From the NCBI GenBank assembly GCA_012728095.1, contig JAAYFU010000041.1, positions 1-50,218 of the forward strand: 50,218 nt of DNA. The letters are read 5' to 3'. Numbering within the stretch: the stretch's first letter is position 1; every line of letters starts with the position of its first letter. Position numbers and translations under genes: made by a program. Origin of the DNA: Clostridiaceae bacterium. GTDB lineage: Bacteria > Bacillota > Clostridia > DSM-8532. Under the pieces are notes generated by a model. The model did no database searches and had not been told where the DNA came from. It worked only from the letters and a program-made list of their open reading frames with translations. Below are positions 1,504-8,329 of this stretch, piece after piece.

Positions 1504-2412
1504 TTAATAAGCATTTGTCAGAAGCACATAGCCGGCGGTAATCGCAAAAATTGTGAAACTAATGATTGAAAAGACTGACAGTTTCTTATATGACAAAATA
1601 TGGTCAATACGAACCCGTATCCTGGCACCGCCGAATGCCGAGACAAAAATATTCCTGCTTTCGGCGCAGTCTATAAGTACTTTTGCATAAGTCTTTTTTG
1701 CATCTTCACCATAGGTTGCCAGAACCTTCTCATCACATGCAAGCTCGGTTTCCTCCAGAAATTTTTTTAAAAACAGCCAGACCAAGGGGTTGAACCAGTG
1801 AACACAGGCAGAAATAACGGCTAGAATACGCCATAAATTATCCTTGCGTTTTATATGCGCCGATTCGTGTGCCAGGATATATTTTAGATCACCTGAGTCC
1901 AATCCTTCGGGAATAATAATTCTGGGACAGAAGACACCGTATGTTGCAGGTGTGGTTATTTTGTCAGATACATATACATTGTCCCTAAATGGTACAGCAT
2001 CATTTAATTCAGATTTTGTAATAAAATAAAGGACTGCAGTCATGATCACAAGGGCAAGAGCGATAACAATCCAGATTATAGAGGCAATTTTAAAAACATC
2101 TTCAAGTATGTTCACCTTATAGGTAATTGGTGAGTAACTTTTGGCCGCCATAATATGATTTGTATAGGTAAGATCCAATACGCCGTCATATACAAGCACT
2201 GTCTTTGTAGTGAATTTTGAAAGCAGAGTCATAAGACTGTATTTACTGGTCATTCCTGCCGGAATCCACATTCTTAGAAAAGGAATTGCCCATAAGATAT
2301 GTATTAGACGACGCGGAAACTTTCTTATTTTTCCTGTCAATAGAATAATTATCCCAACTATGGATGCCGATATGCTCATATTGAAAAGCCAATAGAATAC
2401 TTCGGACAGCAT
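1504..2412 (-). CDS. M56 family (BlaR1/MecR1-like) membrane metallopeptidase without sensor domain
   Basis: A 302-residue membrane protein with helices near residues 9-27, 35-52 and 108-131, then a cytoplasmic zinc-protease segment with HESAH at 182-186 and the downstream glutamate in ELACDEKV, then a last helix near 281-297. This is the BlaR1/MecR1 protease core. It stops right after that helix, so the extracellular penicillin-sensor domain of true BlaR1 is absent. In the family, activation leads to cleavage of the BlaI-type repressor. The start at 2412 is preferred because AGAGGTGA lies 4 bases upstream; an upstream in-frame start at 2430 would overlap blaI. The gap to the blaI stop codon is 4 bases, suggesting translational coupling. 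Confidence 0.85.
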   Translation of the reverse strand: MLSEVFYWLFNMSISASIVGIIILLTGKIRKFPRRLIHILWAIPFLRMWIPAGMTSKYSLMTLLSKFTTKTVLVYDGVLDLTYTNHIMAAKSYSPITYKVNILEDVFKIASIIWIVIALALVIMTAVLYFITKSELNDAVPFRDNVYVSDKITTPATYGVFCPRIIIPEGLDSGDLKYILAHESAHIKRKDNLWRILAVISACVHWFNPLVWLFLKKFLEETELACDEKVLATYGEDAKKTYAKVLIDCAESRNIFVSAFGGARIRVRIDHILSYKKLSVFSIISFTIFAITAGYVLLTNAY

Positions 2413-2416
2413 ACCG

Positions 2417-2770
2417 TCACCTCTCTTCAATCATCTTTCGCAATTCATCAATGTCGTCGGAAGAAAGTTTTTCATCCTCAAGCAAAGCAGAGAAAAGCGC
2501 TTTTTTCGAGCCGCCGAAAAGCCTATCTATAAGACTTTTGACTTCGGACTTGCAGACATCATCACGGGAAATCAGTGAGGTACAAATAAATCCGGGATCT
2601 TCTCTTTTAATATATCCCTTGCTTTCAAGTTTTTTGATAACAGTATATGTGGTGTTTTTATTCCAACCGATCTCCTCCGCGGCAATAAGGCTGATCTGTT
2701 TAGCGCTTATGGGCTCGTTTTCCCATATGATCTCCATAACTTTTATTTCGCTGTCGAATAATTTTTGCAT
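2417..2770 (-). CDS. BlaI/MecI/CopY family transcriptional repressor
   Basis: A 117-residue winged-helix repressor. The helix-turn-helix region is ISLIAAEEIGWNKNTTYTVI, followed by KKLESKGYIKRE, both classic for BlaI/MecI. These proteins are dimers that repress their own operon and are inactivated by cleavage by the partner M56 peptidase, which is the next gene. The operon's promoter carries two dyads that fit a BlaI-type operator, so autoregulation is likely. The ligand or stress is unknown: no beta-lactamase gene is in the window and the partner protease lacks a penicillin-binding domain. The ribosome site GGGGTG is weak and 8-9 bases from the ATG. Confidence 0.88.
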   Translation of the reverse strand: MQKLFDSEIKVMEIIWENEPISAKQISLIAAEEIGWNKNTTYTVIKKLESKGYIKREDPGFICTSLISRDDVCKSEVKSLIDRLFGGSKKALFSALLEDEKLSSDDIDELRKMIEER

Positions 2771-3108: not shown

Positions 3109-3165
3109 GGGTGCAAGATTTCTCATTGAGATAAGCCAATCTGCTTCGGAGGAAAGACCATCGGA
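3109..3165 (+). repeat. Dispersed repeat R1, copy 3
   Basis: This contains GGTGCAAGATTTCTCATTGA, GATAAGCCAATCTGCTTC and GGAGGAAAGACCATCGG. It is in the same orientation as copy 2, 238 bp away, and lies just beyond the GH3 gene's terminator. Confidence 0.8.
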
Positions 3166-3220: not shown

Positions 3221-6200
3221 TTAATATACTATGTTGATTGCTACATAAGCAAGATCTAATACATCTATAATATTATCTCCGTTCATATCTGCGATCTTAG
3301 CTTCAGACCAGTCTTCAGAAGAGGAATCCGTGCCGTAATAGTAAGCAACTATCGCAAGGTCTCCTACATCGGTTTCACCATCGTCATTAACATCAGGAGA
3401 CTTATTCACAGCTGCCTTAAAGGCTTCAACAGCACTATTCAGGGCCGTTACGGCGTTGTTGACCTGCGATTGTGTCGCGCTTGAGTCATCCCTTACAGCT
3501 TTAGCAGCATTGATTGCCGCAAGCAGAGCATCCTTAGCCTCCTGTGAGTATTGGCCGGGTTGTGTGCCTACAACCGCAGCGTCATACAGGCTTTGAGCAT
3601 TATTGATAGCCGAAATCAAAGCTGACTTGTCAACTGATGGTGTACCGCCGCCTATTGATATACTCTTTGCATCCAGTGTTGCCTCTAGGACATCTCCCGA
3701 AGGAGCTACGCCAAGTTTAGCCTGAGTAATTGCAATAGTTTGGGTTGTATTCACAACACCTGGCAACACCTTGAAGGTTAAATTCAATATATCGACGCTG
3801 TCGCCTGATATTCCTCCAATATTTGCTGCTATAATCCTTACTTTTCCGGCAGTTTCACTGTCCTCTCTGACTATCTGGATATCGCTGCTCGCTCCTTCTG
3901 CTCCCACATATTCAAATATGTTGGGATCGTATGTCAATGTAATATCCTCTGCATAAACCGACTGTGTAACATTATTCAGCGCTACTCCCACATTGAACGT
4001 GGCTCCCGGCTGTACACTGCTGCTTGCCTTAAGTGTAGCAGCAACTGGAGTTTCGCTGCCGGTTGCCTTGACCAGAATCTGTCCGTCAAATACAGTCACT
4101 TCACTGCTTCCGTCAATCTTTGCCAGCGGATGGCTGACTTTGATCTTGACACTGACTAATTTATCTTCCTCCGGCAGATTGATGGTACCATTCGGATTAA
4201 TGCATTCATCGGCTTCAAAGGTGACTGTGTAGTCATACGGGACAGTAAGCTTAATATCGGAAGAAACTTCACTGGGAATTTCCCCTGCAAGATATTCTAC
4301 AACATCCTTGAATGCATCATTAAGCACATCCTGATCTGTCTTGAGTACCTCACCGTTACGGCCGATTACATCAATGAATTCACAATAGGTATCGATGGTC
4401 GGTGATGTCGGGCTGGCTTTAGTGGCAAACAGACCCAAACGTACATCCTGCAGGTAGCTGGATTCACTTGCGCGCCGTCCGTCGGCACTCTGTACCCGTG
4501 TATAATTGATACCGTCGGTAGAGAACCATGCGGTGAACTTCAATCCTTCACGCTGTAGTTTTATATAGAATACCAGCGGATCAGGATCTGTGGAAAGTCC
4601 TGTGCTTGTGCTGATGCTGCCGTTGGAAGCTCCGCCGATGGTAGGTGCCATATTCATTGTAAGGCCCGCCGGTCCAAACCAGCTGAAGCCTGATTGCAGG
4701 CCAACACTAATAAAGTTATTGGGATCCTGCCATGCCATCAGTCTGACCTGCTGCGTCGCCTGAGTGGGACGGACAGGGAAGTAGAACTTTGTAACAATTG
4801 TCCAATCGCCTGCTGCAGGTCTTAAGAAGAGATTCTTGAAGGTATTGGCAGCTGAGATATTGTCCGGCAATGTTGGCAGTTTCAGACCTAAACCTTTCAC
4901 TGCTTCATACAGCGAAGCATCCTCGTTGACAATGGTCCAGTTATCGTCAATTATACCTTTAATGAAAGAAGTTGCCGATATTTCTTCATCGAACTGTACC
5001 CTGTAAATCTGGTCAGCGATACCTTCACCTGAGATCTTGATGTAAACGTTTCCGGGTATGGAAGACGGTTTTACGCCCTTGCCGCTTGTATCAGGCTGGT
5101 ATCCGATAGTACCCGAGCCGTCGTCAGTGGTGGAATATTCAACCGTATATCCTTCAAGGGCAGTTGCCTTGACAGCCAAGGCATCACTGGCCAGGTCAAT
5201 ACCGTCAGGAACATTGCATATATAATGCAGTGTATGGGGATCAAAATCTTCTATAAGTTTACCTCCCAATGTTAACTCGGTGATAACAGGTTCGCCCTCA
5301 ACGCATACTACAAAATCGGTGGTCGCTTCCTCTCCGCTGGGAGCAGTAACTTTAACTGTTATGGTTGCCACACCGGGTGCTTTCATAACAATCGGTCCTT
5401 CGGCAAATACATTGGTACCGGCATCTCCTACCTGCACAACAGCGGGACGGTTGGAGGCGTAAGTTACTTTATAAGTATCGGGCAGAACAAATTTGGTTCC
5501 GATCCTGGGGAGTTGGTCGGAAGTCTTGCCGATGTCCAGACGCTCTATGTTAGCCGCACTGTCAGGCACGGTCCATTTTGCTTCGGTAGAGGCTGTATAA
5601 GCATTGACTGCAGCCGGATCAACACCGATGTCCTTGCCTGGTACATTGTTTATAACACGTGTTCCGTACAGTTTTTCGTTGGCCATTGTAACCGCGATAT
5701 TGGGTAAAACAATGTTCTTTGACGGATCATCGGTGAGGGTGAAGATAACGCGTTCGCTTATGCCTTTGCTTTCGTCTCCATACTGAGTCGGCTTTACGGT
5801 AACAACCACAGGATCTTCGCGGATGGCTCCATTTTCGACTGTAAAGCTCTCGCAAAGGTCATCTTCGCCGAATTCGCTGCAGCGGGCTACCCAGATCTTC
5901 CACTCACCTGTGGGAAGCTCATAACAATCCTTCTCTTCATTGAAGAATGCCAAATCAGTAACCTTTATCGGTATGGTTACGATCTCGCTTCCGTTGGCAT
6001 CTATAAAGACTTTGTCAAAGCCCACCAGACGCTTCAACGGAATTGTGGGATCAGTTCCGGCTCCCGGTGAAACGACATATACCTCTGCGACCTGCTTGCC
6101 GGCTGTATTGTTGGTATTGGTAATTTTGAAATTGACGTTGATAACGCTGTCCTTTGTGATTGGTGAACTGTCTGTTCCAATAACCAGGGAGCCAGCGGTA

Positions 6201-8329
6201 TCAGCGCCCAGTATGGAACCGCCTTCTGCAACCGGTGCATACTCAACGTCTGCATAGCTCAAACCGAAACCAAACGGATAAATTGTCTCTTCGACGTTAT
6301 ACATATAAGTACGTCCGCCATTCCCGTCATTAGGGAACAGACTGTAATCAAAGAAGCCCGGGATATCATTGATCATATCCTTCAGCCATGTCGCATTTGT
6401 ACGACCGGAAGGATTGTTCTTTCCGGTGATGGACTCACCAAAGCCTGTACCCTTTCTGAAGCCGTTGAAACTGGACCAAAGAATGGCATCAGCATTGTTG
6501 ACGATATCGTCCACCATGTTCACCGGGCCATAAGTTTCCATGACAAGGATCAGCTTTTTAGGATTCTTGGCTTTTACTTGTTTTATCAGGTCAATCTGCG
6601 CCTGCGCCAAATTCAGATCAGTACGGTCGCCATCTTCACGTGAATCGCCGCTGCCCTGACCAACGACTACAATAGCTAAATCTACATTCTCCTCTATATC
6701 GTCAAGGCTGATATTTTCGCTTCTTAAACCAGTGAAGCTGCTTCTGTTTACCGGAGTATTGAAGCCATAGTGGTAAGAAATATCCAGTTTGCTGCGTGTG
6801 GCCTCATCATATGTATCCGGATCATTGAACGCTGCTTTGATGGCCTGCTCAATGGTAACTAAATTGGCTTCATTGGTCAGACGTGAAGAGTAGCCGCCGC
6901 GGAAATTACTCTGGCCAACAGGTCCTATGATGCGTACCTTGTATTCATCTCTGCTATTAATTTCTTCGGCAGTTATAGGAAGAGCTCGATTTTCATTTTT
7001 CAATAATACTACAGTAGCGCGGGATAGTTCATCAGCCAGTTCAATACGCTTCTGGGTCTGGCCTGCCGCACCGTTGACATAACCGCCTGCAAGCCCCTCT
7101 ACCAGGCGTTGTGCACCCTCGGTCACATACGGGTTCTCCTTATCGAATTCACCCAGCTGCATGCGCTTTGTCATCAGACGGTGCACAGAGTATTCCAACT
7201 GCTGTTCGGTAAAGTACCCCTTGTCAGTAACGATGGGGTTTCCATCAGCATCCTTCAGCATTAGCTTAATGTTGGAAGCGTAACTGCCAAGTCCGTCAGT
7301 TTCACCGGCATTACACTGCAGATCCAGGCCGGACGCCATTGCATTTGCAAAAGCTTCTCCCAGTGTGTAGCGTTTGCCGGTATGCGGATTGATATTATGG
7401 ACATTCCTGTTATAGGAAGTGGCTACCGAATCGCAGTCCGATACTATGTAACCCGAGAAGCCGAATATCTGCCTCAAGAGAGTGTCCATATAGTAACTGC
7501 TGTAGGAAATAGGAACACCGTCCACACTGCTGTAAGCCATCATTACCGAGGATACATCGGCATCATTTACAACGATCCTGTATGGACGGGTATAGTACTC
7601 TCGCATCTCCCGAAGAGTTACATTATCCGCTCCGCTTGTATAACGGTTCTTCTCAGTGTTGTTGGCCGAATAATGCTTAAGAGTGGTAACGGCCTGTTTA
7701 ATACCCTGGTTATTGGCATTGGTAACAAGGTAATTGCCATTTTGATCCTTGCCTTCAACTCCATTGACAAAAGCTGCGCCCATTTTTCCCGCCAGGAAGG
7801 GATCCTCGCCATAGCTTTCATCATTTCGGCCCCATCTTGGGTCGCGGGCAAGGTTAACTGTTGGAGAGAAGAAAGTAAGATTGTACTTGTTCCCCTTGAC
7901 ACGCTCACGGATTTCAGCACCGATTTCCAGGGCCTCCTGATAATAGAGGTCGGGGTCCCACGAAGCCCCCATTGAATAACTGGATGGATATGACGCTCCA
8001 TCAGATGTAATCCCAAACCAACCCTCCTGGGAATACCCATGCAGTGCTTCATTCCACCACATATAGCTTGCGATGCCGAGCCTGGGAATCGCACTGGAAT
8101 TGTACCCTGCGGTTTGAGAAGCCAATTCTGGCAATGTCATGCGTGAAACCAAATCGGCAGCCCGCTCCTCATATGAATAGCTTTCGTCCTGGTAAATCGG
8201 TACTGTTGCGGCAGAAGCGTATAATTGTACCGTGTCAGGTTCCTTTTCGTTATCCATTATGGCAAATGAAGCGGGAAAGCATGTCAGAACCATTGCTACA
8301 GTTAAAATCAGAGAAATAATTTTTTTCAT
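3221..8329 (-). CDS. Secreted GH3 beta-xylosidase/beta-glucosidase with cohesin-like, FIVAR and dockerin modules
   Basis: A 1702-residue extracellular enzyme. Approximate modules: signal peptide 1-23; GH3 N-terminal barrel 50-400 with WWNEALHG (91-98) and likely nucleophile Asp298 in IVSDCDSV; GH3 C-terminal domain 430-690 with candidate acid/base Glu565 in REDGDR; Fn3-like 700-830; Ig-like segments 840-1115; a concanavalin/DUF1349-like sandwich 1120-1330; cohesin-like domain 1426-1560; FIVAR three-helix module 1566-1643; type I dockerin 1644-1702 with two calcium loops (DVNDDGETDVGDL and DMNGDNIIDVLDL). The WWNEALHG form is usual in xylan-active GH3 enzymes. ATG 8329 is chosen because it begins the signal peptide and follows GAGAGAGG; the frame stays open 65 codons further upstream without a signal peptide. 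The exact substrate is uncertain. Confidence 0.9.
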   Translation of the reverse strand: MKKIISLILTVAMVLTCFPASFAIMDNEKEPDTVQLYASAATVPIYQDESYSYEERAADLVSRMTLPELASQTAGYNSSAIPRLGIASYMWWNEALHGYSQEGWFGITSDGASYPSSYSMGASWDPDLYYQEALEIGAEIRERVKGNKYNLTFFSPTVNLARDPRWGRNDESYGEDPFLAGKMGAAFVNGVEGKDQNGNYLVTNANNQGIKQAVTTLKHYSANNTEKNRYTSGADNVTLREMREYYTRPYRIVVNDADVSSVMMAYSSVDGVPISYSSYYMDTLLRQIFGFSGYIVSDCDSVATSYNRNVHNINPHTGKRYTLGEAFANAMASGLDLQCNAGETDGLGSYASNIKLMLKDADGNPIVTDKGYFTEQQLEYSVHRLMTKRMQLGEFDKENPYVTEGAQRLVEGLAGGYVNGAAGQTQKRIELADELSRATVVLLKNENRALPITAEEINSRDEYKVRIIGPVGQSNFRGGYSSRLTNEANLVTIEQAIKAAFNDPDTYDEATRSKLDISYHYGFNTPVNRSSFTGLRSENISLDDIEENVDLAIVVVGQGSGDSREDGDRTDLNLAQAQIDLIKQVKAKNPKKLILVMETYGPVNMVDDIVNNADAILWSSFNGFRKGTGFGESITGKNNPSGRTNATWLKDMINDIPGFFDYSLFPNDGNGGRTYMYNVEETIYPFGFGLSYADVEYAPVAEGGSILGADTAGSLVIGTDSSPITKDSVINVNFKITNTNNTAGKQVAEVYVVSPGAGTDPTIPLKRLVGFDKVFIDANGSEIVTIPIKVTDLAFFNEEKDCYELPTGEWKIWVARCSEFGEDDLCESFTVENGAIREDPVVVTVKPTQYGDESKGISERVIFTLTDDPSKNIVLPNIAVTMANEKLYGTRVINNVPGKDIGVDPAAVNAYTASTEAKWTVPDSAANIERLDIGKTSDQLPRIGTKFVLPDTYKVTYASNRPAVVQVGDAGTNVFAEGPIVMKAPGVATITVKVTAPSGEEATTDFVVCVEGEPVITELTLGGKLIEDFDPHTLHYICNVPDGIDLASDALAVKATALEGYTVEYSTTDDGSGTIGYQPDTSGKGVKPSSIPGNVYIKISGEGIADQIYRVQFDEEISATSFIKGIIDDNWTIVNEDASLYEAVKGLGLKLPTLPDNISAANTFKNLFLRPAAGDWTIVTKFYFPVRPTQATQQVRLMAWQDPNNFISVGLQSGFSWFGPAGLTMNMAPTIGGASNGSISTSTGLSTDPDPLVFYIKLQREGLKFTAWFSTDGINYTRVQSADGRRASESSYLQDVRLGLFATKASPTSPTIDTYCEFIDVIGRNGEVLKTDQDVLNDAFKDVVEYLAGEIPSEVSSDIKLTVPYDYTVTFEADECINPNGTINLPEEDKLVSVKIKVSHPLAKIDGSSEVTVFDGQILVKATGSETPVAATLKASSSVQPGATFNVGVALNNVTQSVYAEDITLTYDPNIFEYVGAEGASSDIQIVREDSETAGKVRIIAANIGGISGDSVDILNLTFKVLPGVVNTTQTIAITQAKLGVAPSGDVLEATLDAKSISIGGGTPSVDKSALISAINNAQSLYDAAVVGTQPGQYSQEAKDALLAAINAAKAVRDDSSATQSQVNNAVTALNSAVEAFKAAVNKSPDVNDDGETDVGDLAIVAYYYGTDSSSEDWSEAKIADMNGDNIIDVLDLAYVAINIVY

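Follow-up and report, generated by a model that had tools for sequence, protein, structure and literature searches.

Glycosidases bearing a cohesin and a FIVAR-dockerin on one chain in a Clostridiaceae bacterium: a possible route to enzyme assembly without a scaffoldin

The GH3 enzyme encoded in the window (the whole analysed stretch of 50,218 nucleotides, contig JAAYFU010000041.1 of the Clostridiaceae assembly GCA_012728095.1) carries on a single chain both partners of one solved complex, the cohesin and the FIVAR-dockerin of the Clostridium perfringens NagJ–NagH pair (PDB 2OZN). We suggest, with a probability of about 0.55, that the dockerins of such enzymes engage cohesins on other copies of the enzymes in trans to form head-to-tail or mixed chains, which would be tethered to the cell wall in related bacteria and would probably be cell-free in the organism studied here.

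The gene (Table 1) starts with an ATG at 8329, with AGAGAGG just before it, and its stop is at 3221. The product is a secreted protein with a signal peptide. The GH3 N- and C-terminal, Fn3-like, cohesin, FIVAR and dockerin matches all exceed their own curated Pfam cut-offs, with 51.1 bits against 24.1 for the cohesin (PF00963, residues 1430–1545), 31.5 against 29.2 for FIVAR (1567–1636) and 25.5 against 22.9 for dockerin_1 (1646–1696). The closest named GH3 models are beta-xylosidases, none of which attains its cut-off. The initial annotation had described GH3, cohesin-like, FIVAR and two-loop dockerin parts on one chain, and this layout is confirmed by Pfam and, for the C-terminal cassette, by AlphaFold2 fold matches. 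Its concanavalin-like sandwich has no direct Pfam match but is probable, since GH43_C2/DUF1349 occupies the corresponding region of L029, a GH3 homologue from the sister genome G010 which aligns with the window protein at 35% over 1471 columns, this region included.

Table 1. Modules of the GH3 enzyme and their positions in the window
Feature	Position	Strand	Basis
GH3-Fn3-(ConA-like)-cohesin-FIVAR-dockerin protein, 1702 aa	3221..8329	-	translation, Pfam
Signal peptide, residues 1-23, inferred	8261..8329	-	sequence MKKIISLILTVAMVLTCFPASFA
GH3 N-terminal domain, residues 102-341	7307..8026	-	Pfam PF00933, E 6e-36
GH3 C-terminal domain, residues 440-692	6254..7012	-	Pfam PF01915, E 1.5e-36
Fn3-like domain, residues 747-816	5882..6091	-	Pfam PF14310
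Probable concanavalin-like sandwich, residues ~1114-1325	4355..4990	-	homologue L029 with GH43_C2/DUF1349 in the aligned region
Cohesin module, residues 1426-1560	3650..4054	-	Pfam PF00963; AlphaFold2 model vs 2vo8, Z 20.2
FIVAR module, residues 1567-1636	3422..3631	-	Pfam PF07554
Type-I dockerin, two Ca loops, residues 1646-1696	3242..3394	-	Pfam PF00404; with FIVAR vs 2ozn_B, Z 14.9

On the 3' side of the GH3 gene, the window contains an apparent gene pair for a BlaR1-like M56 peptidase and a BlaI/MecI-type repressor (1504–2770, minus strand). A dispersed 40-base repeat (TCTCATTGAGATAAGCC..GCTTCGGAGGAAAGACCA) lies at 2886–2925 and 3121–3160 on the plus strand; ten copies with at most three mismatches occur in the genome, none was obtained with a reversed-pattern control, and the repeat has no Rfam match.

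The C-terminal cassette was modelled with AlphaFold2 as a single chain, together with 19 homologues (20 cassettes in total). In the window cassette (pLDDT 92.6, pTM 0.56), the predicted cohesin superimposes on the C. perfringens GH33 cohesin 2vo8 at 1.8 A over 132 residues, which assigns it the cohesin jelly-roll fold and speaks against a different fold for residues 1426–1560, the outcome that would have spoken against the initial annotation. FIVAR directly precedes the dockerin, as in the C. perfringens type, and the predicted pair resembles 2OZN_B (4.3 A, 129 of 131 residues). By sequence too, the best PDB matches are the two partners of the NagJ–NagH complex. The correspondence of the modelled modules to both halves of this proven complex supports their pairing. 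High pLDDT combined with low pTM means that the modules are well defined and their mutual placement is not; this suggests, although only tentatively, that the cohesin and dockerin of the window cassette do not dock confidently in cis. For a direct cohesin-dockerin fusion from Bacillus (207 residues, pLDDT 92.1), the pTM was 0.73, a value which the cohesin alone, with about 140 residues, could largely explain, and this is also no more than suggestive.

The dockerin has two F-hand calcium loops (DVNDDGETDVGD and DMNGDNIIDVLD) with D/N at positions 1, 3, 5, 9 and 12, as expected of type I. Its positions 10–11 had been read as Val-Gly in the loops, which holds for loop 1 but not for loop 2, where they are V-L. 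The separate specificity drawn from this feature loses most of its weight, since (V/I)-G occurs in loop 1 of the NagH dockerin as well (DIGDLAMV) and hence points to the NagH dockerin type and not to a unique specificity.

Profile searches of the window's genome (a draft of 82 contigs, 99.87% complete) returned five cohesins and six dockerins. All five cohesins belong to dockerin-bearing chains, namely two GH3, two GH43 and one metallophosphoesterase ORFs, each enzyme having one cohesin and one dockerin as in the Paenibacillus guangzhouensis type, while the gene of the sixth dockerin is truncated by a contig start (C76:12). The distribution of the two modules over different enzymes, which defines the pairwise complexes of C. 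perfringens, is thus not seen, and no ORF with two or more cohesins, the mark of a cellulosome scaffoldin, was found in this genome. This whole-genome search lends partial support to the earlier proposal of multimers or mixed complexes without a scaffoldin: the modules are distributed accordingly, and the search detected no scaffoldin. Of the 11 cohesins in the sister genome, 10 are dockerin-linked, and the eleventh is a weak match in a family of ~1100-aa proteins without a dockerin. The weak cohesin-like proteins of this size in the genus (e.g., L052) were excluded from the system, as they have no dockerin and come from genomes in which dockerins are lacking; L052:701-3763 (plus strand) and its ~1100-aa homologues in the genus are secreted and carry the weak cohesin-like domain at the C-terminus. 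A scan of 398 genomes of the phylum gave mainly FIVAR-only or cohesin-only matches, and the complete cohesin-FIVAR-dockerin match was obtained in the window's own genome only.

Cassettes are present in many Paenibacillus and in a few clostridial MAGs, often in consecutive genes. We examined the best-scoring 148 of 293 cohesin matches from 12 related genomes, mostly Paenibacillus, and found 139 of these 148 linked to a dockerin; of the remaining nine, seven belong to SLH wall anchors, and contig ends truncate the other two. In 102 cases, the dockerin is in the same frame and always downstream, so that the order is cohesin then dockerin in 102/102 pairs measured; the other 46 cohesins comprise 37 with a dockerin, the two cut at contig ends, and the seven, all N-terminal, on SLH proteins. 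Each assessable cohesin among the best 148 of 293 thus shares its chain with a dockerin or belongs to a wall anchor. The gaps between the two modules in the 102 pairs are 4–25, 81–104 or 161–170 aa (steps of about 0, 90 and 165) and correspond to 0, 1 or 2 FIVAR modules wherever the modules were mapped. Paenibacillus planticolens (G039, L032) contributes 120 of the 293 cohesin matches and has at least 101 dockerin matches; nearly all of its examined cohesins are in single-chain cassettes.

Other architectures were also noted. A circularly permuted GH3 (L016:5249-9283, plus strand), with GH3-C and the Fn3-like domain before GH3-N, bears the same cassette. Paenibacillus chondroitinus (G034) encodes a non-catalytic cohesin-dockerin-fn3-cohesin-dockerin protein (L142:1425-3008, plus strand) next to the gene of a 351-aa SLH-cohesin anchor, and this protein looks like a pure chain extender. 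Two proteins with an N-terminal membrane-helix-like segment, a coiled-coil-like stretch and a weak C-terminal cohesin (L057:270-1241 and L058:3094-4032, both minus strand) adjoin a dockerin-only protein of 627–669 aa, possibly a second cohesin-dockerin pair.

Genes for SLH proteins with an N-terminal cohesin adjoin cassette genes in ten loci, which belong to two lineages, Paenibacillus and the window's own bacterial family. A profile of the anchor cohesin detected such a gene in G014, G015, G017 and G025 but in neither the window's genome nor that of the sister; in the former, it matched only the cassette cohesins. All SLH ORFs listed in the scan of the window's genome were read, and a recognisable cohesin was found in none, so that the SLH-cohesin protein typical of P. 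guangzhouensis is not seen in this draft. The window's genus seems to run its cassettes without an SLH-cohesin anchor. In the same family, G015 encodes a classical cellulosome with five or six cohesins and six enzymes with strong dockerins (contigs C50 and C242), which coexists with cassette enzymes and an SLH-cohesin anchor.

The relationships among cassettes differ from those of the enzymes that carry them. In two enzyme pairs shared by the window's genome and its sister, the upstream parts are 89% and 85% identical and the cassettes only 68% and 67%, whereas the values between cassettes on unrelated enzymes within a genome are 71% and 75%, and the tree groups the cassettes by genome (support 96/86 and 99/93). 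The cassette most closely related to that of the window protein, in L068 (82%), follows an upstream part without similarity to the GH3 part of the window protein. Paenibacillus methanolicus behaves similarly, with cassettes 87% alike within the genome. The signal of homogenisation is modest (nine sites genome-wise, one orthologue-wise and four cross), and in the very close species pair L024/L026 the cassettes group by orthologue. It was not seen in the G014/G015/G025 lineage, where the two cassettes of each genome are only 28–32% alike and follow their enzymes. In this lineage (L055, L059 and L060 for G015, G014 and G025), two enzymes with divergent cassettes are followed by an SLH-cohesin gene; one can speculate that distinct specificities could there serve an ordered, orthogonal chain. 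Cassettes which do not track enzyme orthology fit interchangeable modules of shared specificity.

We suppose that the cassette would act as an assembly tag with one "socket" (the cohesin) and one "plug" (the FIVAR-dockerin). Through its dockerin, a secreted enzyme would bind the cohesin on a second copy of itself or on a different cassette enzyme from that cell, and the enzymes would join in trans, head-to-tail or mixed, with no need for a multi-cohesin scaffoldin. Chains of relatives would begin at the wall-bound SLH-cohesin protein; in the window's genome, assemblies would be cell-free or held by the substrate only, because no SLH-cohesin anchor was found there. Both the cohesin-dockerin binding and its occurrence in trans are what we infer. 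The trans mode is favoured by three points: the short linkers of direct fusions, in which few residues separate the last cohesin strand from the dockerin (e.g., DIFVEETWTVGDVN), which argues against folding back; the SLH-cohesin anchors beside cassette genes, which need free dockerins; and the cassettes not tracking orthology. Against it stands the only tested enzyme of this type with both modules, the C. perfringens GH31, whose cohesin showed no binding despite self-pairing predicted by AF3 (PMC12997984). A more far-reaching version, to which we give only tentative credence, is a scaffoldin-free and anchor-free enzyme polymer, where each cassette enzyme would be both link and socket, the length and composition of chains would be set by stoichiometry only, and species-specific modules would be kept interchangeable via within-genome homogenisation.

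The same cassette could instead close on itself, the dockerin folding onto the cohesin of its own chain to give a self-capped monomer which opens only for a competitor. The presence of both modules on one chain with a FIVAR spacer, where local concentration favours cis contacts, and their obligatory pairing across genomes agree with this, but the tightness of direct fusions, the free dockerins required by neighbouring anchors and the AlphaFold2 models, which place the modules without confidence in both the window cassette and the 207-aa direct fusion, make it unlikely. We also consider it unlikely that the cohesin-like module is a spacer, stability or carbohydrate-contact module and that its linkage to the dockerin is simply inherited architecture. 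The C. perfringens cohesins of GH31 (with both modules) and GH3, for which the published assay detected no binding (PMC12997984), speak for such a role; however, single-cohesin SLH anchors recur beside cassette genes in two lineages, and the dockerin retains its calcium loops and the C. perfringens-type fold.

Partners may also come from outside, the cassettes scavenging dockerin or cohesin proteins of other microbes, as put forward for P. guangzhouensis (PMC11557425). Neither an anchor nor a scaffoldin was found in the window's genome, and the classical cellulosome of G015 shows that 5–6 cohesins and strong dockerins occur within the same family. Nevertheless, dockerins and cohesins are always produced as pairs, cassettes within one genome resemble each other no less than orthologues do, and in relatives the cassette paralogues and anchors already supply partners, so that we find this idea unlikely as well. 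It is improbable, too, that the organism has the same wall-anchored system as Paenibacillus and that the SLH-cohesin gene was merely lost from the 82-contig draft. The draft is indeed incomplete, as the dockerin gene cut at a contig start demonstrates, but its completeness is nearly full, the sister genome has no anchor either under a profile which detects it in four other genomes, and the SLH-bearing ORFs that were read lack a recognisable cohesin. This last possibility overlaps with trans assembly and bears only on the wall-tethering of the chains.

Enzymes carrying both modules are already known. P. guangzhouensis has five SLH anchors and 28 cohesin-dockerin proteins, many of which include a glycosidase (PMC11557425, 2024). 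Its "monovalent adaptors" resemble the enzymes described here in having one cohesin and one dockerin each, nearly all dockerins on cohesin proteins and no large scaffoldin; it differs in having SLH-anchoring scaffoldins, for which the searches of the window's genome and of G010 revealed no counterpart, and in belonging to Paenibacillus, whereas the present system is clostridial and its FIVAR cassette is defined here. Its authors propose scavenging and not chain formation. The NagJ cohesin (X82) and NagH FIVAR-dockerin of C. perfringens (PDB 2OZN, 2JNK, 2VO8) share with our cassette the cohesin subtype and the FIVAR-dockerin, in sequence and fold, as well as the single cohesin on a glycosidase, but their modules are on separate enzymes which form pairs, while in the window's genome both are on every chain. 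The GH31 enzymes of C. perfringens and Akkermansia muciniphila combine cohesin and dockerin on one glycosidase (PMC12997984) as single proteins, whereas here the combination is a genome-wide rule. Cellulosomes likewise have cohesin-dockerin modules on secreted glycosidases, but they load dockerin enzymes onto a multi-cohesin scaffoldin, while in the window's genome it is the enzymes that carry the cohesins, and the search revealed no multi-cohesin scaffoldin. What is new is the anchorless clostridial version, the linkage and spacing rules across ~150 cohesins, and the evidence of module interchange; a proposal of head-to-tail enzyme chains for such proteins was not found in the open-access literature.

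The cassette architecture is found in genomes with 5 to ~120 cohesin matches. If binding in trans is true, these bacteria would build multi-enzyme complexes via self-chaining instead of scaffoldin loading, which would explain why surveys demanding a multi-cohesin protein miss such genomes and would represent a natural design for enzyme polymerisation.
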